Positions 2,078 through 42,464 of a DNA stretch of 64,000 nt are shown here, piece by piece. Within the stretch, counting starts at the first letter, position 1, and each line of letters starts with the position of its first letter. The notes beneath the pieces are model-generated. The model saw only the letters and a program-made list of their open reading frames with translations. It had not been told where the DNA came from and ran no database searches. Location: assembly GCF_013409305.1 (NCBI RefSeq), contig NZ_JACBZJ010000001.1:1054001-1118000 (forward strand), read 5' to 3'. The translations under genes were made by a program, and so were the position numbers. Source of the stretch: Cellulomonas soli. Its GTDB lineage: Bacteria; Actinomycetota; Actinomycetes; Actinomycetales; Cellulomonadaceae.

Positions 2078-3508
2078 CTACGGCCAGGCCCGGAGCAGGT
2101 CGTCCGCCGTCCAGACCTGCGTGAGCCGATCGTCGTCGACGGCGCCGCCCGGGCATACCGCGACCAGCGGAGTCGAAGCACCGACGCCCGGGACGTGCGT
2201 AGCCTCCTGCGCGAGAGCACCGATCTCGGCGGCGGTGACCGGCTTGGCGGCGCGCCACTTGATGGTGCCGACGAAGGCGATCGACTCGGCAGGGCGGGCG
2301 TCCGCCGCCACCAGGTCGATCTCCGGCCGGTTGGTGCGCGGCCACCAGCCACCGATCTGCCTCGCGTGAGGCCACCGCTCGTCGGGCAGCAGGCGGGCGA
2401 GCGACTGGCGGACGACGGGCTCGACGGCACGGCCGCGCCAGGCGGCGTAGCCCGCCTCGAACCGCGCGGACGCGAGGTCGGGTCTCCCCCGGTCGATGTC
2501 GGGCAGTGCGGGCTCGACGACCGCGAGCCAGAACCGCAGCGCAGGGTCCGCCACGCGCCAGCGGCGGTCCTTCGCCGCGCGTCTCGTCGACAGCGGCTCG
2601 TCGGCCTCGACGACGCGCTTCTCGACGAGCAGGGCCAGTGACCGGTCCAGCGTGGTGGCCGAGATCGCACCGGTGAGCCGTTGGAGGATGCCGGTGTACG
2701 TGCGCTCACCCTTGCCGCCGATGGCCGCCAGCACGGCGCGTGCGTGGCTCGACTCCGGCAGCTCACCGTCCAGCACCCGGGTGCCGGAGACCACGAGTGC
2801 GCTGGTCGACCGCTCGAAGGAACGGCGGATGAACGCGGTCGGGGTCTGCCCGTCGGTCCACTCCTGCGCGACGAGCGGCTGGCCCCCGGTGATGAGGTGG
2901 GCGTCGAAGGCGGCCATCCCGCTCAGGCCGGTCATCCGGGCGACGTCCTGCGGCGACAGTGCGTACAGCACCATCTCGGTGGCTCGGCCGTGGAACGGCT
3001 GGTCGGGGCGGTTCAGGGACTCCATCATCCCGAGGTCGCTGCCGAGCAGGAGCAGGAGCACGGGCCGCTGGGACAGCTCGCGGTCCCACACCCGCTGGAG
3101 CTCGCCCGCCCCGCCGTCGAACCCCTCGAGGAGCCAGGGCAGCTCGTCGATGACCACGATCGCCGGGCCCTCGGTCGGCAGCGCCGCGGCCAGCAGGCGC
3201 AGGGCAGCCGTGAGCGACGCCGGCGTGTTGCCGTCGGCGACGGCGGCGCCCGACAGGGTGGACGTGGCGATCGCGTCGGCGAGCAGCGTCAGCTCGTCGG
3301 CCACCGGTGCTCGCCGAGCAGCCTGGAAGTAGACGCTGGGCAGCTGGGCCCGACGGATCAGCTCCGTGACGAGCCGGGACTTCCCCACGCGTCGTCTGCC
3401 GCGGAGGAGCACCGCCACCCCGGCGTCGGCCCGGCCCCCTCTGCGCACGACGTCCAGGTGCGCGTCCAGCTCGTCGAGCTCGACCTGCCGACCGATGAAG
3501 CCCGCCAT
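2078..3508 (-). CDS. AAA ATPase with DUF234-like C-terminal domain
   Basis: A 476-aa P-loop ATPase of the archaeal-type ATPase/DUF234 group. Walker A is RGRRRVGKSRLV near residues 38-48 and Walker B is IVVIDELPW near residue 120. A helical middle follows, then a C-terminal segment with RRWRVADPALRFWL and EIDLVAADAR...GTIKWR. That tail resembles a restriction-endonuclease fold, but the expected acidic residue before the lysine is Thr (G-T-I-K-W). I chose ATG 3508 over the in-frame GTG at 3514 because GGAGG sits six nt upstream of it. A paralogue lies at 25,012-26,457. The cellular role is unknown; relatives are often sporadic, defence- or mobility-associated genes. Confidence 0.75.
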   Translation of the reverse strand: MAGFIGRQVELDELDAHLDVVRRGGRADAGVAVLLRGRRRVGKSRLVTELIRRAQLPSVYFQAARRAPVADELTLLADAIATSTLSGAAVADGNTPASLTAALRLLAAALPTEGPAIVVIDELPWLLEGFDGGAGELQRVWDRELSQRPVLLLLLGSDLGMMESLNRPDQPFHGRATEMVLYALSPQDVARMTGLSGMAAFDAHLITGGQPLVAQEWTDGQTPTAFIRRSFERSTSALVVSGTRVLDGELPESSHARAVLAAIGGKGERTYTGILQRLTGAISATTLDRSLALLVEKRVVEADEPLSTRRAAKDRRWRVADPALRFWLAVVEPALPDIDRGRPDLASARFEAGYAAWRGRAVEPVVRQSLARLLPDERWPHARQIGGWWPRTNRPEIDLVAADARPAESIAFVGTIKWRAAKPVTAAEIGALAQEATHVPGVGASTPLVAVCPGGAVDDDRLTQVWTADDLLRAWP

Positions 3509-3526
3509 CTGCACCCTCCGTCGTCG

Positions 3527-3561
3527 AACCCCCGCGAGGAATACTATTCCTCACGGGGGTT
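3527..3561. promoter_or_regulatory. 35-bp near-perfect palindrome upstream of ATPase gene
   Basis: Two 17-bp arms flank a single central C. The left arm is AACCCCCGCGAGGAATA and the right arm is its reverse complement with one mismatch. It begins 18 nt upstream of the ATPase ATG (minus strand) and lies 50 nt from the end of the convergent-side isochorismatase gene. It has an AT core and lacks a run of T, so an operator or regulatory hairpin is more likely than a simple terminator. Confidence 0.55.
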
Positions 3562-3611
3562 CCGTGCATCGGCGACGGCGAAGGACGTGCACCGCCCTTG
3601 ATGCAGCCCGG

Positions 3612-4247
3612 TCAGTACCCCCGGGACGAGTCGGCCGTGACCGCCGCGCCGCGCAGCGTCGCGGCGTACTCGGCGACCGACATGGGCTTGGAGAACATCG
3701 GGTAGTCGTAGGTGATCGCGTTGTCGTGCTCGGCCTGGGACGTCGCGCCGACGGCGTCGGTGAGCGTGATGACCTCGAAGCCCTTCTCGTAGGCCGAGCG
3801 CATGGTCGACTCGACGCAGCAGTTGGTGAGGAAGCCCGCCAGGACCACGGTGCCGATGCCCTTGGACCGCAGGATGAAGTCGAGGTTGGTCGAGCCGAAC
3901 GCGTCGAGCCCGCGCTTGCCCTCGATGACGATGTCGCCCTCGACGGGCGCGACGTCCTCGACGATCTGCGCGCCCCACGTGCCCTTGACGAACGCGGTCG
4001 AGTCGACGACGCCCTTGAGGATCCCGTAGGGGTGCGCGGTGATCTCGTGGTAGCCGGCCTCGAAGCTGATCGGGCTGTGGATCACGGTCGCACCGGCGGC
4101 ACGAGTGGCCTCGAGCGCCGTGCGGGCGTTCGCCAGCATGCCGGTGCTCTCCATGGTCCCCTGCACGGCGGCGTGCAGGACGCCGCCCTCGCTGGTGAAG
4201 TCGTTCTGGAACTCGATCAGGACGAGTGCCGTGGTCTCCGGGTTCAT
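3612..4247 (-). CDS. Isochorismatase-family cysteine hydrolase
   Basis: The 211-aa protein shows the isochorismatase-fold triad. Asp is in LIEFQNDF near residue 13, Lys is in the GTWGAQI/EGKRGLDAF region, and the nucleophilic Cys is in GFLTNCCVESTMR. Family members hydrolyse isochorismate, nicotinamide, N-carbamoyl compounds or other amides. Nothing here fixes the substrate. ATG 4247 is preceded by AAGGGAG on the minus strand, so the longer upstream frame is not needed. It follows the large FAD/Fe-S oxidoreductase gene on the same strand after a gap of about 40 nt, so the two may be co-transcribed. Confidence 0.88.
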   Translation of the reverse strand: MNPETTALVLIEFQNDFTSEGGVLHAAVQGTMESTGMLANARTALEATRAAGATVIHSPISFEAGYHEITAHPYGILKGVVDSTAFVKGTWGAQIVEDVAPVEGDIVIEGKRGLDAFGSTNLDFILRSKGIGTVVLAGFLTNCCVESTMRSAYEKGFEVITLTDAVGATSQAEHDNAITYDYPMFSKPMSVAEYAATLRGAAVTADSSRGY

Positions 4248-4288
4248 CGCGTGCTCCCTTGCTGGATGTGACGGGACGGACGTGCGGG

Positions 4289-7150
4289 TCAGCGGGGATC
4301 GGGCGGTGCGCCGCCCAGGGCCTGCTCGGCGAGCAGCTCGACGACGTGCCGGTAGCTCCGGCCGGTGGCGCGGGTCATGCCCAGCTCGCATGTGCGGTTG
4401 CAGCTGGCGTGCGCCTGCGCGTCGATCCGGGCGACCTCGGCGGCCTCGCGCCGGGTGGCGGACGCCGTCAGCTCGGGGTGCAGCAGGCCACGGTCACCGG
4501 CGAACGCGCAGCAGCCCCAGTCGAGCGGCACGGTGACGGTCTCGGCGACCGCCTCGGCGACGGTCGCGAGTGCGGGGTCGAGGCCGAGCTGGGTGGACGA
4601 GCAGGTGGGGTGCAGCGTGAGCGAGTCGAGCCGCCGGTACGCCCCGGCCCGCTCCCCCAGGGCAGGCAGGACCCGTTCGGCCACGAACGTCACGACGTCG
4701 ACGACCTGCACGTCCAGCTCCGGGTCGTGCTCGACCAGGTGCCGGAACCCCTCGGTGCACGACGACGCGTCGCTGACCACCGGCAGCCGCCCGCCGTCGG
4801 TGGCCTGGCGCAGGACGGGCAGCACCTTCTCGCGCATGGCCGCGTAGCCCGCGGCGACGCCCTTGGAGGACCACGGCGTGCCGCAGCACAGCGCGTCGAT
4901 CCCCTCGGGGACCAGCAGCGTGAGCCCGGCGGCCGCGCAGAGGTCCTCGAACGCGACCTGCACCCCGGTGCCGCCGGACGCCGGGCCGAACATGACGTTG
5001 ACGCAGGCGGGCAGGTACACCGCGTCGGGTGCGGCCGTCGGTCGCGGACGTCGGCGCGGCGCGCCCCCGCGGGGCAGCTCGGCGGACCACAGCGGCACGG
5101 TGTCGGAGCCGAGCACGGCGCGCGCGGCGGCGTTGACCGCGGTGACCGCCGGCGTGAGCGGGCCGGGCACGGAGTCGACCACGGTCAGCGCGGTCCGGGC
5201 GAGCGCCGTGGTCGCGCCCCAGCCCTTCGCGGCGGTGGTCCAGGCGAGCGCGGCAGGTACCGGCAGGTTCTCGCGGCGCAGCGTCTTGACCAGCAGCCCG
5301 GTGTTGATGCCGACCGGGCAGGCCGTGCCGCACATGCCGTCGACCGCGCAGGTGTGCGTGCCGGGGTAGGTGAAGGCCGCCTCGAGCCGGTCGGCGGTGG
5401 CGGAGTCGCCCGCGAGCTCGGCGGTGCGGATGTCGCGGCGCAGCGCGATCCGCTGCCGCGGGGTGAGCGTGAGGTCGCGCGAGGGGCACACGGGCTCGCA
5501 GTAGCCGCACTCGACGCAGCGGTCGACCTCGGCCTGCACGGTCGGCGCGAGCTTGATGTGCCGCAGGTGCGCGTCGGGGTCGTCGTCGAGCAGGACGCCG
5601 GGGTTGAGCAGCCCACGCGGGTCGAACAGGTGCTTGACCTGCCGCATGACGTCGTAGAGCTCGTCGCCGTACTGACGCCGCACGAACGGCGCCATGACCC
5701 GACCGGTGCCGTGCTCGGCCTTGAGCGAGCCGCCGTGGCCGAGCACCAGGTCGACGAGGTCCTCGGTGAAGCCGCGGTACCGGGCCAGCTGCTCACCGGT
5801 CTCGAACCGGTCGGTGAGCATGAAGTGGATGTTGCCGTCCTTGGCGTGACCGAAGATCACCGCGTCGTCGTACCCGTAGGTCGCGAAGAGCGTGGTCAGC
5901 GTGGCGCACGTGTCGGCGAGCCGGTCCACGGGCACGACGACGTCCTCGAGCAGCGCGGTCGTCCCGCTGCGGCGGGCGCCGGCGACCGCGGTGTAGAGCC
6001 CCTTGCGCAGCTTCCACAGCTCGCCGCGCACGGTGGCGTCCGCGCTCAGGTGCACGGGGGCACGCAGCGCCAGCGCGTCCAGCGCCGGCCGGGCCGACCC
6101 GACGACCGCGTCGAGCTCCTCGTCGGTGGTCGCCTGGTACTCCAGGAGCAGGGCCGCCTGCTGCGTCACGCTCAGCGCACGGACCACCGCGGGCGACCCG
6201 GCCAGCTGCTGCCCGACGCGCAGGGACGTGGCGTCCATGAGCTCGAGGGTGGCGGCACCGGTCGCGACGAGCGCGGGCAGCGCCCGGTTGGCGGCGTACA
6301 GGTCGTCGAACACGAGCAGGGCCGAGGCGGTGCGCGCACGGACGGGCACGGTGCGGAAGGTGGCCGAGGCGACGAACGCGAGCGTGCCCTCGCTGCCCAC
6401 GAGCAGGTGCGCGAGGATCTGCGGCACGCTCGCGAAGTCGACCAGCGCGTTGAGGCCGTAGCCCATGGTGTTCTTCATCGCGAACTGCCGGGCGACTGTC
6501 GCGGTCGAGGCCGGGTCGTCCAGCACGCGTCGCCGCAGCGCGAGCAGGCCCGCGTGCAGGGCGGGTTCCAGGGCCTGGAGCCGCTCGTCCGCATCGGCCG
6601 CACCGGTGTCGACGACCGTGCCGGACGGCAGCACCGCGACCAGCGACTCCAGCGTCCGGTAGCTGTTCTCGACCGTGCCGCTGGCCATGCCCGAGGAGTT
6701 GTCGGCCACGACGCCCCCGACGGTGCACGCCGCCTCGCTCGCCGGGTCCGGCCCGAACCGCCGCCCGTACCGCGCCAGGCGCGCGTTGAGGTGCCGCACG
6801 GTCACCCCCGGCTGCACGCGGACCCGGGCACCCTCGTCGAGCACGTCCACGCGCGTGAAGTGCCGGCGCACGTCGGCCAGCACGCCCGATCCCCCGGCCT
6901 GGCCCGACAGGCTCGTGCCGCCCGACCGGAACGTCAGCGGCACCCCGGCGGCGGCCGTGGCCCGCAGCAGCCGGGCGACCTCGTCGGCGTCGCGGGGTGC
7001 GACCACGGCCGAGGGCACCAGCAGCACGTGCGAGGCGTCGTGCGCGAGCGCGCGCAGCGTGAGCTCGTCCGTGCGCACCTGGGCGCGGTCGGCGACGCAT
7101 CCGCCGAGCAGGTCGGCGAGCGTGTCCGGCGTCGTTGCCGTCGCGGTCAT
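4289..7150 (-). CDS. FAD-linked and Fe-S (GlcD-GlcF type) oxidoreductase
   Basis: A 953-aa fusion protein. The N-terminal half is a VAO-type FAD-binding domain (RSGGTSLSGQAGG and GGVVADNSSGM) with a C-terminal FAD-oxidase domain (GHAKDGNIHFM and KAEHGTGRVMAPF). It is followed by two 4Fe-4S clusters (CVECGYCEPVCP and CAVDGMCGTACP) and two CCG-type cysteine-rich domains (CCGTPWSSKG and DWGCCAFAGDRG). This layout is that of D-lactate or D-2-hydroxyacid dehydrogenases feeding electrons to the respiratory chain. ATG 7150 follows GAGGAG. It is divergent from a FadR-type regulator with an operator-like palindrome between them, so the regulator probably responds to the substrate, perhaps lactate or glycolate. 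Confidence 0.9.
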   Translation of the reverse strand: MTATATTPDTLADLLGGCVADRAQVRTDELTLRALAHDASHVLLVPSAVVAPRDADEVARLLRATAAAGVPLTFRSGGTSLSGQAGGSGVLADVRRHFTRVDVLDEGARVRVQPGVTVRHLNARLARYGRRFGPDPASEAACTVGGVVADNSSGMASGTVENSYRTLESLVAVLPSGTVVDTGAADADERLQALEPALHAGLLALRRRVLDDPASTATVARQFAMKNTMGYGLNALVDFASVPQILAHLLVGSEGTLAFVASATFRTVPVRARTASALLVFDDLYAANRALPALVATGAATLELMDATSLRVGQQLAGSPAVVRALSVTQQAALLLEYQATTDEELDAVVGSARPALDALALRAPVHLSADATVRGELWKLRKGLYTAVAGARRSGTTALLEDVVVPVDRLADTCATLTTLFATYGYDDAVIFGHAKDGNIHFMLTDRFETGEQLARYRGFTEDLVDLVLGHGGSLKAEHGTGRVMAPFVRRQYGDELYDVMRQVKHLFDPRGLLNPGVLLDDDPDAHLRHIKLAPTVQAEVDRCVECGYCEPVCPSRDLTLTPRQRIALRRDIRTAELAGDSATADRLEAAFTYPGTHTCAVDGMCGTACPVGINTGLLVKTLRRENLPVPAALAWTTAAKGWGATTALARTALTVVDSVPGPLTPAVTAVNAAARAVLGSDTVPLWSAELPRGGAPRRRPRPTAAPDAVYLPACVNVMFGPASGGTGVQVAFEDLCAAAGLTLLVPEGIDALCCGTPWSSKGVAAGYAAMREKVLPVLRQATDGGRLPVVSDASSCTEGFRHLVEHDPELDVQVVDVVTFVAERVLPALGERAGAYRRLDSLTLHPTCSSTQLGLDPALATVAEAVAETVTVPLDWGCCAFAGDRGLLHPELTASATRREAAEVARIDAQAHASCNRTCELGMTRATGRSYRHVVELLAEQALGGAPPDPR

Positions 7151-30618: not shown

Positions 30619-30777
30619 TGCACCACCACCGCCTCGCCGACACCAACGCCGCTCGGGAAGATACCTGACGAACACCCGACTCGGTCTCAGCGAGTCGCCG
30701 GGGTCCTTCTCCCACCGCGAGCGCAGCAGGTGCCCCGGGCGATCACGTCCCACATCGAATGGGCCGGTGGTACGTTG

Positions 30778-30788
30778 ACTCAATGAGT
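30778..30788. promoter_or_regulatory. Palindrome over the vapB start codon
   Basis: ACTCAATGAGT is an 11-bp palindrome around a central A and includes the vapB ATG at 30783. An autoregulatory VapB-VapC complex could bind it. There is no other strong promoter element in the adjoining 160-nt gap. Confidence 0.4.
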
Positions 30789-31028
30789 GGGACATATCCG
30801 GTGACCATGGGAGATCGTGGGCGACTCGTCGTTCCAGCGGAGGTGCGCGCACACGTCGGGCTCGAGGAGGGCGTCCCCCTGCTGCTGCTCGAGACGCCCG
30901 GCGGTCTGGTGCTCATGACCAGGGAGCAGGCGCGCGAGCTCCTGCGGCGCCAGCTCGCCGGCTCCGACGTCGTCGCACAGCTCCTGGCCGACCGTCGATC
31001 TGCCGCCGCTGCGGAGGACGCCGCATGA
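30783..31028 (+). CDS. vapB: AbrB/VapB-type antitoxin
   Basis: An 81-aa protein. Residues 1-45 form the swapped-hairpin AbrB fold (YPVTMGDRGRLVVPAEVRAHVGLEEG). The Arg/Ala-rich C-terminal helix (RELLRRQLAGSDVVAQLL) would bind and inhibit the toxin. It overlaps vapC by 4 nt (ATGA). The complex probably represses its own promoter. Confidence 0.9.
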   Translation: MSGTYPVTMGDRGRLVVPAEVRAHVGLEEGVPLLLLETPGGLVLMTREQARELLRRQLAGSDVVAQLLADRRSAAAAEDAA

Positions 31029-31393
31029 CGGTCGTCCTGGACGCGTCCGCGGTCCTGGCCTTCATCACAGGCGAGCCCGGCGCGGACGTCGTGGAGCAGG
31101 CGCTGACCGGCACCACAGTGTGCTCGGTCGTGAACTGGTCGGAAGTCGCACAGAAGGTCCGTGCCGCCGGCGGGGACTGGTCCGTCGCGTCCGCTCTGCT
31201 CGCCAGCTACGGCCTCTCCCCGCTCGACGCCACGACCCACGACGCCGAGGGTGCCGCGGCGCTGTGGCAGCGCGGCTCCGGGCTGTCTCTTGCTGACCGC
31301 TTCTGCCTCGCGCTCGCCAGCCGGCTCGACGCCGTCGCCCTGACGGCCGACACCGCCTGGGGCATCTCGGAACGCGTACGGCAGATCCGCTGA
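31025..31393 (+). CDS. vapC: VapC PIN-domain toxin
   Basis: A 122-aa PIN-domain RNase. Acidic residues of the active site are visible: D6 in VLDASAVLAF, E in NWSEVAQK, D in LSLADRFCLALA and D in ALTADTAW. VapC toxins cleave tRNA or rRNA and arrest growth. The catalytic residues are intact, so the pair should be functional. Confidence 0.92.
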   Translation: MTVVLDASAVLAFITGEPGADVVEQALTGTTVCSVVNWSEVAQKVRAAGGDWSVASALLASYGLSPLDATTHDAEGAAALWQRGSGLSLADRFCLALASRLDAVALTADTAWGISERVRQIR

Positions 31394-33215: not shown

Positions 33216-33291
33216 GGGCCTCTAGCTCAATCGGCAGAGCAGCGGACTTTTAATCCGCGGGTTGTGGGTTCGATCCCCACGGGGCCCACCA
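33216..33291 (+). tRNA. tRNA-Lys (anticodon UUU), CCA encoded
   Basis: A complete cloverleaf. The acceptor stem is GGGCCTC/GGGGCCC, the D-arm contains AGCTCAATCGGCAGAGC, the anticodon loop is CTTTTAA giving UUU, and the T-arm is GTGGGTTCGATCCCCAC. The genomic CCA follows discriminator A. tRNA 3' ends are common integration sites for mobile elements; an accessory region begins just downstream. Confidence 0.97.
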
Positions 33292-33792
33292 AGGTGTTTG
33301 TGCAGGTAAGAGGCTTACGCGGCGGGTGTGGCGGAGGCCCGAACTGGCGGTCGTCCGGGCGGCTAGTCCGCATTTAGTCCGCACTTTGTCCACGCGACCC
33401 CGGGTCCGGCCCACTGCGGCCCTTACGCGAGCGAGGGCGAGCCGAGCCCAGCTCCGGGCCCAAAGCTGGCCTACGACACGCGTTCGGGGCAAGGGAAGAC
33501 CAGGCCGCGACCCTCCCGCAGGACGGGGGACTACTCGAGCTCCTGCAGGCCTCCAGGCGCCCGGTGACAGGTGGGGCGGTGGAGAAGTGTTCGGCACGCC
33601 CGCTCACTACTACGCGCGGATGTCCTGACAGTGCGGCGCCAGGCCGGACAGCGGCTCTCGGCGGGAGGAAGCGACCAACGCATCGGCGCGACCGCCAACG
33701 GGCAGGTCGAGACTCCTCGGTGCCGATGCCTTTCACCGCATGGCGGGACGACGTTCATGGGGCAAGCGGGCACGAACAGAGAGGAGCCCCCG
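33292..33792. other. 500-nt gap between tRNA-Lys and the Ubl operon
   Basis: No convincing gene is seen. The long open frames here are shadows. The stretch presumably carries the promoter of the ubiquitin-like operon, but no clear -35/-10 pair stands out. I could not find a second copy of the tRNA 3' end elsewhere in the window that would mark an attachment-site pair. Confidence 0.4.
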
Positions 33793-34140
33793 ATGAGCAC
33801 TCCTACCGAGAGCGACACGACGTCCAAGCCGGGCCACGGCGAGGACCACCCGTTCAAGGTGACCATCCGGTCCCTTGCGGGGCACAGCGACACGGTCACC
33901 ATCAAGCCGTCCGACACGATCGGCGAGGTGCGTGACCAGGAGGTCAAGAGGTTCATCTCCAAGGGGTGGCTCACGGCAGGCGAGTACGCCCTGACGCTGC
34001 CGCGCGTCTCCAAGAGCGAACTCGACCCGACTGCCACATTCGGTGACCTGGAGGTCATCGCGGGCGACGTCCTGGTGCTGATCAACCGCAAGCCGCAGGT
34101 CGACGGGAGCTACCCGGTCGACACGGTCGACCAGGCCTGA
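33793..34140 (+). CDS. Ubiquitin-like beta-grasp protein (Ubl)
   Basis: A 115-aa protein. Residues about 20-100 follow a beta-grasp pattern: strand FKVTIRSLAG, strand DTVTIKPSDTIGEV, a helix EVKRFISKGW, strand YALTLPRVSK, the TFGDLEVIAGDVLVLI turn and last strand. The C-terminus is QVDGSYPVDTVDQA rather than a bare di-glycine. Cleavage after Gly105 by the neighbouring JAMM peptidase would give a mature end, but this is inference. ATG 33793 follows AGAGGAG. It is the first of seven tightly linked genes and would be the protein tag. It appears to be one Ubl fold, unlike the tandem fold of ISG15-like BilA proteins. Confidence 0.78.
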   Translation: MSTPTESDTTSKPGHGEDHPFKVTIRSLAGHSDTVTIKPSDTIGEVRDQEVKRFISKGWLTAGEYALTLPRVSKSELDPTATFGDLEVIAGDVLVLINRKPQVDGSYPVDTVDQA

Positions 34141-34153
34141 CGGCCCGAGCACC

Positions 34154-34573
34154 GTGGCTCTGCACCCGGCCGTTCTGTCGGACCTCCTGGACGAGGAGGT
34201 CCGACAGGCCCGCATCAAGTTGGGCCAGGACGCCGGCGACCTCCGCCGGGTTGGCACCAACGTGCTGATCACCGTGAAGCGCCCTGACGGCGTCTGGAAG
34301 CTGCTCCTCGACGGAGCCCGGTACGACTCGGAGCCCTTCGACGTTGCGCTGGTTGACGACGAGGGCGAGGTACTGGCCCTGGAGCAGTGGATCCCCGGCT
34401 TCGCCCTCGGGATCCATCCCAGCCTCAACGTCCCGTTCGTCTGTGTGAGCGGCACTCGCGGCTACTACGCCCACGAGAGCCACTTTGCTGAGCGCTGGGA
34501 CTCCCACCGCTTCAGCATGCGCCTTGACTCCCTGCTCGATTCCCTGCTCCGAAAGGCAGGCGTACATGCCTAG
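34154..34573 (+). CDS. E2-like conjugating-enzyme-fold protein
   Basis: A 139-aa protein starting with GTG 34154, 13 nt after the Ubl gene. The middle (NVLITVKRPDGVWKLLLDG, then YDSEPFDVALVDDEG and W79) matches the E2 strands and the proline-containing turn. The only cysteine, Cys97 in NVPFVCVSGTRGYYAHESH, sits where E2 catalytic cysteines lie and would form a thioester with the Ubl. The downstream His residues (107, 110) may help catalysis. Identification rests on pattern and on its place between Ubl and JAMM genes. Structure prediction would be decisive. Confidence 0.7.
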   Translation: MALHPAVLSDLLDEEVRQARIKLGQDAGDLRRVGTNVLITVKRPDGVWKLLLDGARYDSEPFDVALVDDEGEVLALEQWIPGFALGIHPSLNVPFVCVSGTRGYYAHESHFAERWDSHRFSMRLDSLLDSLLRKAGVHA

Positions 34574-35087
34574 CCACTCCACCTCCCGGGTGACGACCCA
34601 GCAGGGCCGCTCCGGCAGCCACGCGGCGCCGCCTCTCGTGCTGACCTCCAGCGTCCTCAACGAGGCAGCGAAGTTCTTCGAGGAGCGTGGCGCCTTCGGG
34701 CTCGAGGGCACTGCGATGATTAAGGCGGGCGACGTTCTTGAGCTAGTCGTCCCGCGACAGCTTGCTCACCGCGACGCGCATGGGCACGTCAACGTCGAGG
34801 TGCCTCGCGAGGGGCAGATGGATCTCGCTCTGGCCCTTGGCCCCGAGGAGATCTTCGTGGCCCGCATCCACTCCCACCCGGGGGACGCGTTTCACTCCTC
34901 GGCCGATGACGCCAACCCGATCATCTCGTACGAGGGCGGCTTGTCGGTCGTCGTGCCGTTCTTCGGACTCGGCCTTCGTCACGGGCTCGACGCCTGCGCG
35001 GTGTTCCTCTTCCACGCCGGCGGCTGGGTCGAGCTGCCGGCGGGCCCGAGGCGAAATCGGTGGGTCGTCGCGGAGCCCTTGTCATGA
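34566..35087 (+). CDS. JAMM/MPN+ deubiquitinase-like metallopeptidase
   Basis: A 173-aa JAB-domain protein with the complete catalytic set: Glu47 (GLEGTA), then H102-S-H104-P followed by S112 and D115 (HSHPGDAFHSSADD), which is E...HxHx7SxxD. Such enzymes remove ubiquitin-like tags or trim their tails. The first 8 nt overlap the E2-like gene, so the two are translationally coupled. In Bil anti-phage operons the JAMM peptidase (BilC) follows the E2 (BilB), as here. It might process the C-terminal tail of the Ubl and deconjugate products. Confidence 0.88.
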   Translation: MPSHSTSRVTTQQGRSGSHAAPPLVLTSSVLNEAAKFFEERGAFGLEGTAMIKAGDVLELVVPRQLAHRDAHGHVNVEVPREGQMDLALALGPEEIFVARIHSHPGDAFHSSADDANPIISYEGGLSVVVPFFGLGLRHGLDACAVFLFHAGGWVELPAGPRRNRWVVAEPLS

Positions 35088-36718
35088 ACGCCGACCCCCG
35101 TCTCCGGTTGCTCGGCGCTCCGGCATCCAGCGACTGGCCGGAGTCCGCCGGGGCGGTCCTCGCCCGGCTCGACGAGACCGAGGTCGTCGTCGCGGCTAGC
35201 CCGGACGCCGACGCTCCCGCGCGTGTGGCCATCGCAGCATTCGTGGCCATGATCGCCCGCCTGGTCCCCCACGTGAGGATCGACTGCGCCGGAGATCTTC
35301 CGGTCAACTGGTGGCAGGCCGAGTCCTGGGACAATCTGCTGGAGCGGCTCAAGGAGGTCCGAGCGACATCGACTACCGCCCCCACCCAGCAGATCAAGGT
35401 CGGCTTCGGTATCGCGCAGGAAGGCTATGACCTCTACGTAGGCGGTGGTGACTGGAACGTCCTCCTTGGCCTCGCTCCCGTCAACCTTGAGAACGGCAAC
35501 GCTCACGCCCTTGGAGTGCACGCCGCTGCATGCCTGGCGGTAAGTCAGGTGCTGATCATGGTCCTCCGGGAGCTGGGCTTCCCCGGAGTGGCCCTCACAG
35601 ACCAGGCAGGCACGTCCGGGCGGATCGAGACCAACCTCGTCGACCATGGTTTGCACACGATCGACCGCAACACCCCCGAGCAGTTCCCCCCCGTCCCCGG
35701 TCGGCCCCTGCGAGTCGGCTTCCTCGGCGTGGGGTCGGTCGGCACGAGCGCGCTGGCGCTACTGGCCACCGCGTGCTCACCCATGCTGAACCGAACCCTT
35801 CAGGCGAGCCCGTCCCTTGAGATCACGGCTGTCGACAGGGACGCCTTCGATCCCGGACGCAATCCGTACCGGTACCCGGCGCTCCTCGGCGGCGAGTCCG
35901 ACCACAAGGCGCGAGGTGTCGTCGAGCGGCTTAAGGTGCTCGGCCTCGCAGCCGAGGCGGTCGTGGCCGACGTGGGCAGCTGGAACAGCACCAAGGCCGA
36001 TCCTGGTTGGCGCGGTGTCTTGGTCTCGAGCGTCGACACCATCCCAGGCCGGCTCGACGTTGCTGACGTGCTGGGCGAGCGCACGCTGTCGGCCGGCGTC
36101 TCTGGTACAGAGCTCCACGTGCAGTGGGAGCGGTTCGCCGACGGGTTCGCCTGCCCGTTCTGCGACTTCGTGCGCGCTGACCCCCCACTGACCCAGGCGG
36201 GGGTGTTCGCCGAGGTCACGGGAATCCCGGTGTCGCGAGTCCTGGCCCTGCTGCTGGAAGGTGCTGCACTAGACGCCTCGGACGTCGACATGGCCATCGC
36301 TGCTGGACGGGTTCCCGAGCAGCGGCGGGAAGCGCTCATGGGTGCGCCACTCAGTGACCTCGTTCGACAGGCCTACGCCGAGGCAGAGTTCCGTCCGCAA
36401 GGGAATTCGGCTGGACCCGGAGCCGACGTCGTCGCTGTTGCCGCCCCACAGGTCTCCTGGCTCGCCGGCACCTTGATCGCCGCCGAACTCGTCAAGGACA
36501 TGTTGGGTCTGCCGACCTTGAGTCGCCGCGTCGACTTGGACGCAGGAGGACTGCCCGCCGGCCTCGTGCGCAGCGTGCCGCTCGACGGCACCGGGACCTG
36601 CGTGTGCCACTCCGGAGTACGTCGCCGCTGGTACCGCGCGATGTACAGCGCAGCCGAGACCGAGCCTGCAACCCCGCCGCGTGACTCGGTGTCGTTTCTG
36701 CCGACTACGTCGGGCTAG
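35084..36718 (+). CDS. E1-like (ThiF/MoeB-fold) adenylyltransferase
   Basis: A 544-aa protein. After an N-terminal domain of about 200 residues without recognised motifs comes the Rossmann ATP site GFLGVGSVG (212-220), Asp251/Asp253 in AVDRDAFDPGRNPYRY, and K275. Structural zinc ligands look to be C357/C360 (CPFC) and C506/C508 (CVC). It should adenylate the Ubl C-terminus. No cysteine occurs between 361 and 505, where canonical E1 catalytic cysteines usually lie. It overlaps the JAMM gene by 4 nt (ATGA). Order matches BilD. Confidence 0.85.
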   Translation: MNADPRLRLLGAPASSDWPESAGAVLARLDETEVVVAASPDADAPARVAIAAFVAMIARLVPHVRIDCAGDLPVNWWQAESWDNLLERLKEVRATSTTAPTQQIKVGFGIAQEGYDLYVGGGDWNVLLGLAPVNLENGNAHALGVHAAACLAVSQVLIMVLRELGFPGVALTDQAGTSGRIETNLVDHGLHTIDRNTPEQFPPVPGRPLRVGFLGVGSVGTSALALLATACSPMLNRTLQASPSLEITAVDRDAFDPGRNPYRYPALLGGESDHKARGVVERLKVLGLAAEAVVADVGSWNSTKADPGWRGVLVSSVDTIPGRLDVADVLGERTLSAGVSGTELHVQWERFADGFACPFCDFVRADPPLTQAGVFAEVTGIPVSRVLALLLEGAALDASDVDMAIAAGRVPEQRREALMGAPLSDLVRQAYAEAEFRPQGNSAGPGADVVAVAAPQVSWLAGTLIAAELVKDMLGLPTLSRRVDLDAGGLPAGLVRSVPLDGTGTCVCHSGVRRRWYRAMYSAAETEPATPPRDSVSFLPTTSG

Positions 36719-36732
36719 TCGTCGATACTTCA

Positions 36733-37326
36733 ATGGTGACGGATGCTCAGGCCGAGGAGGAGCCGCGCGGTCCCGCAGCAGGTGCGCGCATCTGCACCCC
36801 TACGGACGTCGCTGCCCAGTACCGGCGGCATCACGAGAGTCTCGCGAAGGTCGCAGCCAGGTTCTTCGAGGGGAAGCGACCGGACGCCGCCGAGAACGCG
36901 GTGATGGATGTCATGCTCCGGCTCACGGAGAGCGCCAAGGCTGGGGAACTCACCGACAAGGGCGAGGACTGGGGCCCGTACCTGCGCCGAGCCGTCCGCA
37001 ACAGCTGCGTGGACATCGTCCGTCGGGAGAAGAGGGAGCGCGAGCACTTCCCGCAGGGCGATCCGGAACTGGAGCGGATCGTCGACTTGGACCCGCTGGG
37101 CGACGCAATAGCTCAGCAGCACTCGACCAGATGGCAAGTCGCGCGCCTGAAGTCAGCTCTCGCGACCCTCGACGAGAGCGAGCTCCTGATCATTTGGCTC
37201 ACCTTCTGGAAGGGGGCGACCGACAAGCAGATCGGCGACCGCATCGGCACCAGCGGACAGGCAGTCGGCCAGCGCAAGAAGACCATCCTCAGGAAGCTCC
37301 TCAAGGAGGTGACGAAAGATGAGTGA
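36733..37326 (+). CDS. Sigma-70-family factor (ECF-like)
   Basis: A 197-aa protein with sigma region 2 at about residues 28-103 (AENAVMDVMLRL, then DWGPYLRRAVRNSCVDIVRREKR) and a sigma-4-type helix-turn-helix at about 145-195 (ESELLIIWLTFWKGATDKQIGDRIGTSGQAV). No anti-sigma gene is present. It starts 14 nt after the E1 stop. It may direct transcription of its own operon or of target genes. Its fusion-like coupling to the next gene (8-nt overlap) suggests an embedded regulatory function. Confidence 0.8.
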   Translation: MVTDAQAEEEPRGPAAGARICTPTDVAAQYRRHHESLAKVAARFFEGKRPDAAENAVMDVMLRLTESAKAGELTDKGEDWGPYLRRAVRNSCVDIVRREKREREHFPQGDPELERIVDLDPLGDAIAQQHSTRWQVARLKSALATLDESELLIIWLTFWKGATDKQIGDRIGTSGQAVGQRKKTILRKLLKEVTKDE

Positions 37327-38056
37327 CCAACAAACCGGTGGAGCCGACGCCGGAACCATGGAGCCAGCCGACGGGTTCACCCGCGCGCTTCTCGACATTG
37401 CCGCAGGCAGGCCACACGACATCGCTAGCCTCCCCGAGGAAGACCAGGAACTGCTTGCAGCCGTGACCGACTGGCTGCCAGCGCTTGCAGATGCGATCGC
37501 GGACCTCCACGTCGAAGGGCGCGACAGCGACATCGACGTCCACAGCCGTGGGCTGGTCGAAGTCCGCCCCGACGATCCGATTGCCTTGATGCTCGGACTC
37601 GTTGAGGACCCTGCTGTGCGTCTCGACGGCCAGCAGCTTGCGGCTGCCCGCAGGGCCGCCGGCCTCGACATCGCCCAACTGGCAGAACGCCTCAATCGAC
37701 GTGGTTGGGACGCAACAATCAAGACCGTGTCAGCCTGGGAACGGGGCAGAGTCAGCCCACCGCCAGCGACGATCAACGCGGTGGCAGAGGAGCTGGACGT
37801 TTCCTCCGAGGCGCTTCTGGCGACCGGCACCTTGGACGCGCCCACCATCGACACACTCTTCGACGACGCGGCAATTGCTGCGTTCCTAGACGAGTGGGCA
37901 CGCGAGGCCAGTATCCCAGCCGAGAAGCTCGCCGAGCAGTCGAAGCGCCTGCTCGCCACCGCTGGTAGGCGGAACGCAACCTCGGCGTCCCCCGAGGCGC
38001 TCCTGGCCGTCCTCAAGCACTTCAAGAACCTGCCCGGATTCGGGGTTTCGGGATGA
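37319..38056 (+). CDS. XRE-family regulator with central helix-turn-helix
   Basis: A 245-aa protein. The XRE helix-turn-helix is at about residues 105-165 (LAAARRAAGLDIAQLAERLN and IKTVSAWERGRVSPPPATINAVAEELD). The first 100 residues are acidic and helical, and the C-terminal 75 are also helical. It overlaps the sigma-like gene by 8 nt and the metallopeptidase gene by 4 nt. XRE repressors next to ImmA/IrrE-type peptidases are often cleaved by them; that would lift repression when stress is sensed. This pairing is suggested by context alone. Confidence 0.82.
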   Translation: MSDQQTGGADAGTMEPADGFTRALLDIAAGRPHDIASLPEEDQELLAAVTDWLPALADAIADLHVEGRDSDIDVHSRGLVEVRPDDPIALMLGLVEDPAVRLDGQQLAAARRAAGLDIAQLAERLNRRGWDATIKTVSAWERGRVSPPPATINAVAEELDVSSEALLATGTLDAPTIDTLFDDAAIAAFLDEWAREASIPAEKLAEQSKRLLATAGRRNATSASPEALLAVLKHFKNLPGFGVSG

Positions 38057-39057
38057 GCACTCGTCACACTCACGCCCGGCGGATAGTCGCCAACATCGCC
38101 GCCGACAAGCGAGCACTCATCGCAGGTAACCCGATCGCTGGGATCGAAAGCCTGGGTTACACCGTGGTTGCTGAAGCTGCCTTGACCTCCAAGCGAGGCG
38201 CCGGCGGCTGGTGTGACGGGCTCTCCTTCGCCGAGCACAACACCGTCATCTACGCCCCCACTCCCGGATCGAACCGGCAGAACTTCACTCTGCTCCACGA
38301 GGTGGGTCACATCCTGGTCGAAGACGACGACAGCGCCCTCGTTTGGCTCGCGGACCGCGACAACCCCGAGAGGGAGGTCGAACGCCTCTGTGACGAGATC
38401 GCGTCGGCACTCGTTGTCCCTGAGGAGATGCTCGACGACATCGTCGGCATTGGGCCTCTGACCGCCATGGACCTCAAGACTCTTGTGACTGTCTCTTCAG
38501 CTAGTGGGCCGGCCTGCGCCATCGCACTGGCGACACGCCTTTCATCCGGCGCTGTAGCAATCATCGATCGTGCCACCGAGATAGTCGCTCACTCCGCGCT
38601 ATGTGGCGATGAACTGCAGGTATACCCGTGGCGAGGGACCAATGTTCCCGCTGGCCACCCGTTGCTGAGACTCGCCGCCGGCGCGGCGACGACAACTAGG
38701 TCCTACTGGCTTGACCGGTGGGATCGCCGCCAAGACTACTACGTCAGTGCGGTGGCGACCGAGAAGCGGATCTACGCCGTATTCAGCATCAACGACCTAT
38801 GGGGGGTCGACCGGTTCCACGGTGGGCAAGCACCTCCGACGAAGTCTAACGCGCTACGAAGAGAGATCCGGTGCAGGTGCGGCTTCCGCGGCCCAGTCAC
38901 CGGTTGGCCGTGCCCTGAATGCGGACACCTCTACTGCCCTGAGTGCGGCGACTGCGACTGCCAGCGACGCGCGCGGATGCAGGAGCTGTGCGGTTCCTGC
39001 TTCTGCCTCACTCCGGCCGTCGATCTCGTCGGTGGGATTTGCAGCGGCTGCCGGTGA
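38053..39057 (+). CDS. ImmA/IrrE-type metallopeptidase with C-terminal cysteine-rich domain
   Basis: A 334-aa protein. The ImmA/IrrE (M78) zinc site is HEVGH at 82-86 with a third-ligand Glu about 115 (CDEIASALVVPEEM). Residues 274-333 hold 13 cysteines and one histidine in CxC, CxxC and CxxC-type clusters (C274, C276, C287, C290, C295, C298, C301, C303, C313, C316, C318, C330, C333). These read as a binuclear or trinuclear zinc module, possibly RING-like. A RING-like domain beside E1/E2/Ubl genes could be an E3 ligase, but that is inference. The 4-nt overlap with the XRE gene supports a repressor-protease pair. A 9-bp hairpin follows. Confidence 0.85.
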   Translation: MSTRHTHARRIVANIAADKRALIAGNPIAGIESLGYTVVAEAALTSKRGAGGWCDGLSFAEHNTVIYAPTPGSNRQNFTLLHEVGHILVEDDDSALVWLADRDNPEREVERLCDEIASALVVPEEMLDDIVGIGPLTAMDLKTLVTVSSASGPACAIALATRLSSGAVAIIDRATEIVAHSALCGDELQVYPWRGTNVPAGHPLLRLAAGAATTTRSYWLDRWDRRQDYYVSAVATEKRIYAVFSINDLWGVDRFHGGQAPPTKSNALRREIRCRCGFRGPVTGWPCPECGHLYCPECGDCDCQRRARMQELCGSCFCLTPAVDLVGGICSGCR

Positions 39058-39607: not shown

Positions 39608-39895
39608 GTGGCAAAGCCGTATCCCAAGGAGTTCCGCGACGACGTCGTGGCCGTGGCCCGCAAGGGGCAGGTGCCGCTGACGCAGATCGCGAAGGACTTC
39701 GGTATCTCCGAAGGGTCGTTGTCGAACTGGATGAAGCAGGCCGACGTCGAGGACGGCCGACGGTCCGGGCCGACCCAGGCCGAGCGCGCCGAGCTGCGTG
39801 AGGCGCGCAAGCGGATCCGGGTGCTGGAGCAGGAGAACGAGGTCCTGCGCCGCGCGGCCGCCTACCTCGCGCAGGCGGGTCTGCCGGGAAAATAG
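39608..39895 (+). CDS. IS3-family transposase OrfA
   Basis: A 95-aa HTH protein (KEFRDDVVAVARKGQVPLTQIAKDFGISEGSLSNWMKQ) with a leucine-zipper-like C-terminal helix (RKRIRVLEQENEVLRRAAAYL). GTG 39608 start. It ends at TAG 39893-39895, just after the slippery sequence GGGAAAA. Confidence 0.92.
   Translation: MAKPYPKEFRDDVVAVARKGQVPLTQIAKDFGISEGSLSNWMKQADVEDGRRSGPTQAERAELREARKRIRVLEQENEVLRRAAAYLAQAGLPGK
39886..39892 (+). promoter_or_regulatory. Programmed -1 frameshift site (GGGAAAA)
   Basis: The heptamer is in the X-XXY-YYZ phase in the orfA frame (G GGA AAA), directly before the orfA stop. A -1 slip continues into the orfB frame (VFPLVREMAAAG) and makes the OrfAB transposase. This is a standard IS3 arrangement. 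Confidence 0.8.
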
Positions 39896-39915
39896 TCTTC
39901 CCGCTCGTCCGTGAG

Positions 39916-40797
39916 ATGGCCGCGGCCGGCGCCCGCATCAGGGTGCCGGTCGCGGTGGCGTGCCGGGTCCTGGGCCTGTCGACCCAGGGGTACTACAAGT
40001 GGCTCAAGAACCCGGTCTGCGACCGGGACTGGGACGACGCGCACGTCCTTGCCGCGATCTACGAGATCCATGGCGACGACGCGACACTCGGCTACCGGTT
40101 CATCACCGACGAGCTGGCCGACGAGCACAAGATCAGCGTCGGGGAGAACCGGGTGCACCGGTTGTGCCGGATCGCCGGCATCACCGCCAGCCACCACAAG
40201 AAGCGGTCCAAGCCCGCGACGGCCGGCCCCGCGCCGCACGACGACCTGCTCGCGGTGGTCGACGAGCACGGCGTGGTCCGTCACGAGTTCGTCGCGCACG
40301 CCCCGAACCAGGTGTGGCTGTGGGACATCTCCGAGCACCCCACCGCCGAGGGCAAGCTCTACATCTGCGCGATCAAGGACGTCTACTCGAACAAGATCGT
40401 CGGGTACTCCATCGACTCGCGCATGAAGTCGTCCCTCGCGCGGGCGGCGATGCGCAACGCGATCGCGCTGCGCTCACCGGCCGGCACGGTGTGTCATTCG
40501 GACCGAGGCGGCCAGTTCCGTGCCAAGGCGACCCAGCGGCTGCTGGCGAACAACGGCCTGGTCGGGTCGATGGGCCGCTCCTACGGCGCGGGCGACAACG
40601 CGAGCATGGAGAGCTTCTTCTCCCTGCTGCAGAAGAACGTCCTGAACACCCGCCGCTGGCACACCCGCGACGACCTGCGCCTGGCGATCGTGACCTGGAT
40701 CGAGACCAAGTACAACCGCCGACGCCGCCAACGCGCCCTCGGCAAACTCACGCCCGTCGAGTTTGAGATGATCTACACGGCCGCAGACGCGGCCTGA
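39916..40797 (+). CDS. IS3-family transposase OrfB (rve domain)
   Basis: A 293-aa integrase-core protein, read in the -1 frame relative to orfA. The DDE residues are D in WLWDISEHP, D in VCHSDRGGQF and E in ASMESFFSLLQK. The N-terminus probably derives from the frameshift fusion, so ATG 39916 may not be a real start. The frame is intact. Confidence 0.93.
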   Translation: MAAAGARIRVPVAVACRVLGLSTQGYYKWLKNPVCDRDWDDAHVLAAIYEIHGDDATLGYRFITDELADEHKISVGENRVHRLCRIAGITASHHKKRSKPATAGPAPHDDLLAVVDEHGVVRHEFVAHAPNQVWLWDISEHPTAEGKLYICAIKDVYSNKIVGYSIDSRMKSSLARAAMRNAIALRSPAGTVCHSDRGGQFRAKATQRLLANNGLVGSMGRSYGAGDNASMESFFSLLQKNVLNTRRWHTRDDLRLAIVTWIETKYNRRRRQRALGKLTPVEFEMIYTAADAA

Positions 40798-40977
40798 CTA
40801 CCGCAAACCCCGAGTGTCAACCAGACCGGGGGCAGACCCAGCGACCCGAGCGGACGGTTCTCGTTCTTCAGATCGCTCGGCTTCGAACCCCTACTCCCGA
40901 ACGACCCCACGGACGCCGTGTGCGCTCCGACACGCACTGTCCTCGAGCGGGCATCGTCGACCACACAACCCGGCTGA

Positions 40978-41119
40978 GAACCGATCGGAGCTGCGCTCGG
41001 TCCTCAGCCTCGGCTTGTCGGCGAGTCCGGGCCTCGGGCGGGACCGAGGGGTGAGGGTCGCGCATGTGATCCCCGAGGCTGCAGTCCGCATCAACCGCTT
41101 CTGCGCTTGGGCCACGGCA
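40978..41119. other. Unassigned sequence between GNAT remnant and traG remnant
   Basis: About 140 nt without a supported gene. The junction with the coupling-protein remnant lies near 41,120, where homology ends abruptly. This is consistent with a deletion or rearrangement breakpoint. Confidence 0.4.
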
Positions 41120-42464
41120 CGCCGGCAGCGGCGGCAGCGGCGCGAGGTTGCCGATCTCGTCCAGGGCGAGGAGCAGCGGCGGGTCGAGCCGCGCACCGGG
41201 CGACGCCGCTGCGATCCGTCGGGCCGTTTCCACCATGTCCTCGACGAGCGCCGCAACGATCGGCGCCGCGGCGCCGGCCCCGGATGCGGTTCCCAGCACG
41301 TACAGCGTCCCGCGGTCGCGCAGGAACGCCGCGGGGTCGAACTCCTCGCCCTCCCGCGGCGAGACCGCGTCCAGCACCCGAGGGTCAGCCAGCGCGAACA
41401 GCGCCTGCCGGACACCGAGCCAGATGGAGTCGCGGGTGCGGGGGCCGGAGTTCGCGGCCTGCTCGAGCGCTTTGTCCCAGCCCAGCGCCGCCGAGGGTCG
41501 CCCCAGGATGGTGATGGCCTCGGTGACCGCCGCCGGGTCGAGCGACCACCGGTAGAGGTCCCGCACGGCCCGGCCGTCGAGGGCAGCAGCGTGCAGCAGC
41601 GCGCGCAGGACCGTCTCGGTCTGCGCCTGCCAGAAGTCGCCGCCGCTGGTGCCCCGTGAGATCCCGGTCCCGGCGGCCAGGCCTCGGGCGCGGATCATCG
41701 CGATCTGCGGGACGTCGCACCCGCGCACCGGCGACCACCGGAATCCGTCGGGCACACCAGCTGCGAGGGCCTGCGGATCAAAGACTGCGACCGGCCCGAT
41801 CTCTCGCCTCGCCGCGTAGGTGGCGGCGAGGTTGTCCGGCCGGGTCGACGTCGTGACGACGGCGCCCGGGGCGTCGAAGAGCATCGGGATGACCACGTGC
41901 CCCTTGCCCGACCGCGGCGGCCCGACGACGAGGATCGAGTCCTCCACCGACGCCCACGCCTGCGCGCCGTGTGACCGGCCGAGCAGGTAGCCGACCTCGC
42001 GAGGGTGCGGGCGAGGCAGGGACGGCCGCGCATGGCGTGCGCGGCGGGTGACAGTCCGCGGCCTGGCGGCTTCCAGCACCTCGCTTCTGGTCGCGGTGCC
42101 CGGGAGGTTGCGCGGGGCGGCGCGACGACGTCGCGCATCCCCGCGGGACCATCGAACGAGTGCGATCCCCACGGCCGCCACCGCCGCAACCACGACACCT
42201 GTCACCGCCCATTAGGCGACCGGCCCGGGCATCGGCGTCCCCCACGCGGCGCTCGGATCGGACGGCTCGCGAACGACGGCGAGTGAGCCGGACAACCAGG
42301 CATGCGGCGCCTCGCGCCCAGTCACGACGGCCGCCCGCCGCAGCGCCTACCCACAGCACCCCAGCCGCACCGACGAGCGCAGCCAGAGCACCGAAGGCGA
42401 CATCCGTCAGCGACCCCGACGGCGCCACGCGGCTCCCAGGCTCGCGTCCCACGCCAACGCTCAC
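41120..42464 (-). pseudogene. Decayed TraG/VirD4-like coupling protein
   Basis: A minus-strand gene beginning at GTG 42464 in a 4-nt overlap with the VirB4-like fragment. The N-terminal membrane segment (AFGALAALVGAAGVLWVG) is in one frame. A net one-nt shift occurs within 42328-42347, and the other frame then reads on to GPVA-TAA-WAVTG, where TAA at 42212-42214 replaces a sense codon. The remainder has Walker A GPPRSGKGH and Walker B LLLALDEIGNLAPL. The C-terminal part ends abruptly near 41120 after PLPPLPA. Three lesions mark it as a pseudogene. Originally it would couple a T4SS to a DNA substrate. Confidence 0.8.

Follow-up and report, generated by a model that had tools for sequence, protein, structure and literature searches.

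The bacterial ISG15-like (Bil) operons are the closest described relatives of the locus reported here. According to the available text of PMC11354881, BilC exposes the C-terminal glycine of the ubiquitin-like protein (Ubl) BilA, the CEHH motif of BilB comprises Cys138, Glu144, His146 and His151, and Cys417 of BilD is the thioester site of the E1 enzyme. For a second group of conjugation operons, named Bub, the available text of PMC13373217 reports CapW or CapH+CapP in 219 of 544 operons, CapP being activated by single-stranded DNA and cleaving the repressor CapH. In this study, we analysed a stretch of 64,000 nt of Cellulomonas soli (GCF_013409305.1, NZ_JACBZJ010000001.1, positions 1,054,001–1,118,000, forward strand; hereafter the window), for which a preliminary description had proposed a seven-gene operon that joins a complete conjugation set (Ubl, E2, JAMM peptidase and E1) to a sigma factor, an XRE-type regulator and an ImmA-like (M78) metallopeptidase. 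Judged from sequence comparisons and structure models, the locus combines four Bil-related and three regulatory proteins in a fixed gene order behind a common upstream motif. We favour, with modest confidence, the interpretation that it is an autonomous and inducible Ubl conjugation operon of the Bil lineage, which is predicted to act most likely against phages.

A conserved seven-gene operon

All seven open reading frames (ORFs) were recovered at 33793..39057 on the forward strand, without internal stops and with intergenic gaps of +13, −8, −4, +14, −8 and −4 nt, in full agreement with the coordinates and gaps given before (Table 1). Above-threshold Pfam and NCBIfam matches were confined to the sigma, XRE and M78 proteins and were absent in both databases for Ubl, E2, JAMM and E1, while Prok-JAB (E 0.005) and Metal_CEHH, the latter on the E2 around Cys97 (E 0.02), appeared below the Pfam threshold. 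PADLOC models matched the JAMM protein as BilC (1.7e-8), the E1 as BilD (6.4e-6, residues 20–162) and the M78 protein as capP (1.1e-12). Structure prediction, which had been suggested as a check, returned Ubl and E2 folds for the two small proteins. The proposed relationship to Bil, including the gene order Ubl, E2, JAMM and E1, was borne out, and the same holds for the added module consisting of the sigma factor (TIGR02937, E 1.4e-18, with sigma-70 regions 2 and 4 present), the XRE regulator (HTH_31, E 1.7e-8) and the M78 peptidase (PF06114, E 1.7e-8, with additional matches to PprI/IrrE structures). Because the four conjugation proteins have no above-threshold family match and named entries for E1 and E2 relatives in protein tables mostly read "hypothetical protein", the system is easily overlooked.

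The gene context of E1s belonging to this family was compared across seven loci, including L001 (a metagenome-assembled genome of the Actinomycetes) and L002 (Allobranchiibius), both taken from GTDB contigs. Ubl, E2, JAMM, E1, sigma, XRE and M78 genes follow one another in the same order in all six complete loci; the seventh, L001, starts inside the E2 gene at a contig end and has the remaining genes in order. With start codons of L042–L044 chosen among candidates, an overlap of 4 or 8 nt is present at 24 of the 36 gene junctions, and the largest spacer measures 70 nt. The claim of one tightly packed unit is supported by these short gaps and overlaps and by the order conserved elsewhere, and the genome survey proposed as a further check indicates that the adjacency is not coincidental. 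Pairwise identities, calculated for linked genes only over 15 locus pairs, correlated with those of E1 (r = 0.91 for Ubl, 0.88 for E2, 0.86 for JAMM, 0.87 for sigma, 0.73 for XRE and 0.92 for M78). In protein tables, the E1 list had 14 contig sizes in common with the M78 list and 19 with the E2 list, compared with 0–1 in shifted controls; these counts include the C. soli genome itself and a 1173-base entry, which must be coincidental, as it is too short for both genes. As E1 identities range from 46 to 66%, the loci are not recent copies of one another.

Genomes of the family and order were scanned with profile A1, scoring few candidates per genome in overlapping genome sets, and the phylum was scanned with a single-sequence query. 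Strong E1 matches were obtained in 1/221 family genomes, 1/396 order genomes (one more weak) and 1/396 phylum genomes (two more weak), each time in the C. soli genome. The order of genome G050 gave a strong match in 1/397 genomes (G1228; one more weak) and the family of G1228 in 1/112 (again G1228), with a fragment in one further genome and a Bil-like E1 in another. The family of G1070 gave strong matches in 3/390 genomes, G1070 itself being weak. Loci with weak matches in G142, G1070 and G731 are L005, L009, L012, L007 and L010. G1366, a relative of the genome carrying L013, holds broken E2 and E1 fragments only, which constitute a decaying copy (L017, 7524–8096). Spread on plasmids or phages was considered and rejected: the window E1 had no match at E ≤ 1e-5 in 72,556 plasmid and 50,697 phage records, and none of 106 candidate stretches from an IMG/VR scan with patterns of alignment A1 was confirmed.

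Active sites of the conjugation proteins

The window E1 is homologous over its length to the BilD structure 8TYZ_A (E 1.2e-20), and the HMMER alignment places Cys417 of the latter on Ala432. We aligned 117 E1 rows, namely 115 of 120 listed proteins (out of 162 matches; five shorter than 480 aa were dropped) together with the copies of L002 and L013, both already represented among the listed proteins. The Cys417 column contains Ala in 116 of these rows and Glu in one, and any cysteine between residues 361 and 500 occurs in 15/117 rows only. The conserved cysteines are found at positions 357, 360, 506 (116/117) and 508, where they presumably form a zinc site.

Two four-gene Bil-like operons with a short, single-domain-sized Ubl were encountered elsewhere in the phylum (L008, 5620–8530, and L018, ~2288–5217), the first of which has a divergent gene for a helix-turn-helix (HTH)–M78 fusion (RmrA/capP-like) just upstream. 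L008 retains both the E1 Cys417 and the E2 CEHH motif. In a tree of 30 E1s, 28 family members were separated from the Bil E1s of L008 and L018 by a branch ~5 changes per column long (support 98/100), at a split for which the tool warned that long branches meet. Since the family E1s branch apart from these two, the locus does not resemble an ordinary Bil operon with three recently gained genes.

Cys97, described previously as the single cysteine of the E2-like protein, is indeed its sole cysteine and is invariant, together with His110, in 70/70 aligned relatives; the two residues correspond to BilB Cys138 and His151. The column of BilB Glu144 is occupied by Gly (42) or Ala (28) in all 70 relatives and that of His146 by Tyr in 69 of them. 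The "complete conjugation set" of the preliminary description is therefore complete by gene count, but its E1 lacks the catalytic cysteine of BilD and its E2 has substitutions at two of the four CEHH positions. The E/HxH/S/D signature of the JAMM protein proved intact as claimed (E47, H102, H104, S111, D114), and identical residues are present in the JAMMs of all seven family loci and of L008. An E2 homologue from Saccharothrix xinjiangensis (P0191) is labelled as a SUKH-3 immunity protein in the public record, which is probably a misannotation given the BilB-like fold of the E2 family.

The predicted Ubl structure comprises one domain, and Ubl lengths of 107–117 aa in all six complete loci agree with the single-domain type assigned earlier. 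The Ubl gene ends exactly after ...R(K/A)PQVDG in L013, L042, L043 and L044, while PQVDG is followed by 10 extra residues in the window and by 7 in L002. Structure comparison revealed Gly105 as the last aligned residue in several ISG15 rows, where it faces ISG15 residue 156 or 157, which we take to be the terminal glycines of that protein. By analogy with BilA and BilC, the simplest reading is that the window Ubl would be a precursor trimmed by the JAMM peptidase to PQVDG.

Regulatory proteins and upstream motif

The HExxH motif, Glu110 and Cys54 of the M78 protein are invariant in 25 aligned members chosen from 127 matches. Its Cys-rich tail, mentioned in the preliminary description, was confirmed, with 12 cysteines identical in 7/7 loci. 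The best PDB match of the tail was the EEA1 FYVE domain, a weak one (E 0.031), and neither RING nor FYVE was found in a Pfam search at E ≤ 1. As this match is the only structural echo of the tail, we can do no more than guess that it may act as an E3-like factor. Five M78 proteins (P0284, P0292, P0300, P0311, P0317) carry a shorter tail with 8 cysteines, in which the last two CxxC pairs are missing.

Upstream of the Ubl gene, a two-box motif (CTTTCAC-N15-CGTYYAY) ends 34, 35 and 35 nt before the start codon in the window, L002 and L013, respectively. The three sequences are identical at 11 of 14 box positions, compared with a maximum of 9 in 2000 shuffles in which spacing and shift were left free. 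Degenerate copies of this consensus were detected in three loci identified afterwards, L042 (12/14 at −63; score equalled by 8/1000 shuffles), L043 (11/14 at −74) and L044 (12/14 at −71; 7/1000). In the 4.26-Mb genome of C. soli, the exact motif (N14–16) occurs once, at the operon, with none for the reversed control; the N15 form has five sites at ≤1 mismatch and 46 at ≤2 mismatches versus 21 for the control. Promoters of extracytoplasmic function (ECF) sigma factors often have a −10 box beginning with CGT. The sigma factor of the operon may itself read this motif.

Perfect inverted repeats with arms of at least 7 bases upstream of the Ubl gene were present in L013 only and absent in the window and L002, so that an operator for the XRE protein was not identified. 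Control by LexA was also considered and rejected: the actinobacterial SOS box is absent from 33300–33793 at ≤2 mismatches, and sites with 3 mismatches are common in the window (77 versus 29 expected).

Genomic neighbourhood

PADLOC matches at E < 1e-40 were obtained for 7 of 22 picked neighbour ORFs, involving three of the six other loci, compared with 1/20 control ORFs (of 24 picked) from six arbitrary stretches, that one without any single part of its match passing. Wadjet JetD and JetC are located just downstream of the operon in L013 (14968–19364), HmaB (C-terminal part of the model), HmaC and QatC flank it on both sides in L042 (157–4384 and 16155–17876), and AbiEi and AbiEii follow ~0.85 kb after the M78 gene in L001 (5801–7371).

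The neighbours of the operon in the window itself were scanned with Pfam only. Downstream lies debris of mobile elements (39608–42205), with IS3-type transposase genes followed by an opposite-strand gene with a partial T4SS-DNA_transf match. Upstream of a tRNA-Lys gene, a VapBC-like pair is formed by MazE/AbrB-like (below the Pfam threshold) and PIN-domain genes (30759–31393). A second copy of the tRNA-Lys 3' end closer than 3 mismatches is absent in the window, so no attachment pair is shown.

Table 1. Features of the seven-gene operon and its upstream region in the window.
Feature	Position	Strand	Remarks
Promoter-like two-box motif CTTTCAC-N15-CGTTCAT	33730..33758	+	End 34 nt 5' of Ubl start codon
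Ubl, 115 aa, single beta-grasp domain	33793..34140	+	Putative mature C-terminus Gly105 (34105–34107)
Ubl 10-residue tail after PQVDG	34108–34137	+	
E2-like (BilB-related), 139 aa, GTG start	34154..34573	+	Cys97 at 34442–34444; His110
JAMM/JAB peptidase (BilC-related), 173 aa	34566..35087	+	Intact active-site residues
E1-like (BilD-related), 544 aa	35084..36718	+	Ala432 (36377–36379) at BilD Cys417 position
Sigma-70 family factor, ECF-like, 197 aa, regions 2 and 4	36733..37326	+	
XRE-type HTH regulator, 245 aa, HTH ~104–168	37319..38056	+	CapH-like role suggested by position
M78 (ImmA/IrrE/PprI/CapP-like) metallopeptidase, 334 aa	38053..39057	+	HExxH, Glu110, Cys54
Cys-rich tail of M78 protein, 12 conserved Cys	38872..39054	+	Weak FYVE/treble-clef resemblance
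tRNA-Lys (TTT)	33216..33291	+	Upstream context, outside operon

Proposed mechanism and alternatives

An inducible conjugation operon of this type might work as follows. At rest, the XRE regulator would repress the operon, until DNA damage or single-stranded DNA produced by a phage activates the M78 peptidase, which would then cleave the XRE protein on the CapP/CapH pattern. The sigma factor of the operon could subsequently drive its own promoter (the two-box motif with its one exact genomic site) and thereby create a positive loop. The JAMM peptidase would trim the Ubl to ...PQVDG, and could later strip it from targets, while the E1 would adenylate the terminal glycine. Because the E1 lacks the BilD cysteine, the Ubl would probably pass directly from the adenylate to the E2 residue Cys97, assisted by His110, and the E2 would attach it to phage or host proteins, possibly steered in an E3-like manner by the cysteine-rich M78 tail. 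The more specific proposal that direct transfer by a cysteine-less E1, an M78 protein acting both as switch protease and, through a zinc tail with 12 cysteines, as E3-like factor, and a sigma factor dedicated to one promoter in the genome all come together here is speculative, and we think it unlikely to hold as a whole.

Several observations weigh against this picture. The E1 of the four-gene operon L018, which retains CEHH, has no cysteine at the Cys417 position either, and the cysteine loss is thus not unique to the seven-gene form; it could moreover mean that thioester transfer is absent altogether. The Ubl model is of low confidence from residue 105 on (predicted local distance difference test score < 50). 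Since the XRE protein has no match to PADLOC capH at E ≤ 1, its pairing with the M78 peptidase is based on position, and the same applies to the roles assigned to the sigma and XRE proteins, given that they are the least conserved parts (identity 0.23–0.48 and 0.25–0.54, respectively). The motif copy of L043 is weak, with 24/1000 shuffles being as good, and at ≤2 mismatches the 64-kb window contains 1 motif match versus 1.09 expected by chance; the motif could instead be the binding site of the XRE protein or of another sigma factor. Regarding the neighbourhood, no defence gene matches were obtained for the picked ORFs around L043 and L044, and L002 gave a generic helicase only (1.9e-24). The neighbour test was small and its ORFs were picked by hand, and as JetC and JetD were scanned after having been noticed, the comparison leans towards the defence hypothesis.

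Among the alternatives, a stress or signalling system deserves the most attention, although we regard it as rather improbable. The Ubl would here be conjugated to the sigma factor or regulator of the operon or to host proteins, and conjugation and its removal by JAMM would control transcription, an idea favoured by the sigma factor found within the operon in 6/6 complete loci and by Bub operons, for which the available text of PMC13373217 gives no demonstrated phage protection and a possible part in stress responses. Defence genes adjoining three of the six other loci speak against it, as does the relationship to Bil, a known anti-phage pathway according to the same text. Accidental adjacency of a Bil operon to a sigma/XRE/M78 module that has nothing to do with it would suit the window copy, whose surroundings include a tRNA gene and an IS3-type transposase, a setting in which unrelated genes accumulate. 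It is barely conceivable, however, in view of the order kept in all complete loci and in the L001 part, the junctions overlapping by 4 or 8 nt, the divergence that tracks E1 and the contig linkage of E1 and M78, and the locus survey speaks against it.

The remaining alternatives concern the E1. A different nucleophile of the enzyme, such as Cys150 or a conserved Ser/Thr of the catalytic half, might still carry a covalent intermediate: Cys150 is present in 101/117 rows and in both four-gene Bil E1s (L008 and L018), and at least 95% of rows keep Ser315, Ser316 and Ser336. We consider this improbable, as Cys150 is replaced by Ser in 14 rows, precedes the Rossmann glycine motif (215–220) and also occurs in L008 next to a normal Cys417. 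The missing cysteine would suit a sulphur-carrier pathway in the style of ThiS/MoaD, in which the E1 would only adenylate the Ubl glycine for subsequent thiocarboxylation and JAMM would trim the precursor; sulphur-transfer operons that bring together JAB peptidases, E1-like enzymes and ThiS/MoaD-like proteins are described in the available text of PMC1779556. Such a pathway is very unlikely for an operon that encodes an E2-fold protein with invariant Cys97 and His110 (70/70 rows), and whose seven conserved genes gave no Pfam or NCBIfam match to families of sulphur metabolism such as rhodanese or cysteine synthase.

If the favoured interpretation of a Bil-related, inducible conjugation operon is correct, the locus represents a divergent, conserved actinobacterial branch of bacterial Ubl conjugation with its own transcriptional switch. 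It raises the questions whether E2 charging is possible with a cysteine-less E1, and whether a private sigma factor together with a repressor-cleaving protease can govern a conjugation immune system.

Comparison with known systems

A literature search led to no recognised published description of a Ubl-E2-JAMM-E1-sigma-XRE-M78 operon, which is weak evidence since key papers lay outside its reach. In Burroughs 2011, YukD-like Ubls were reportedly described alongside genes for E1, E2, JAB and RING proteins, and a comparable neighbourhood may already be mentioned there.

CapH+CapP modules of CBASS, Bub and other defence operons share with our locus the placement of an M78 peptidase gene, here with its capP match, after an HTH gene, but the module stands last in the operon after the sigma gene, its peptidase has the 12-Cys tail and its HTH protein has no CapH match. 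Bub operons, considered by description only, are likewise conjugation operons often coupled to DNA-damage controllers in the available text of PMC13373217, whereas E1, JAMM and E2 of the present operon match Bil proteins. The Ubl tri-ligase systems, as far as outlined in the available text of PMC7159879, resemble it in combining Ubl, E1, E2 and JAB with a partner that binds zinc, in some cases close to a metallopeptidase; the FtsH-ternary systems of the same text differ by a Ubl that is joined to E2 and EAD1 and works with MoxR/vWA/FtsH components, which lie outside the conserved seven-gene unit. ECF sigma genes beside predicted immunity genes are a feature of the conflict systems in the available text of PMC8195603, where the sigma-linked ones are, however, caspase/TRADD-N systems.

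The closest likeness is to Bil, with which the operon shares the order of the Ubl, E2, JAMM and E1 genes, the relationship of E1, JAMM and E2 to BilD, BilC and BilB by sequence or fold, and the C-terminal glycine of the Ubl. It differs in an E1 without Cys417, an E2 without Glu144 and His146 of CEHH, sigma, XRE and M78 genes as part of the operon, and a single-domain Ubl in place of the two-domain BilA described in the available text of PMC11354881. As the Ubls of L008 and L018 are also short, the number of Ubl domains may not define the family. For Bil itself, the available text of PMC13373217 mentions CapK+CapS as a different pair of controllers, in five operons. The operon is thus a relative of Bil, yet the features tested set it apart from a standard Bil system.

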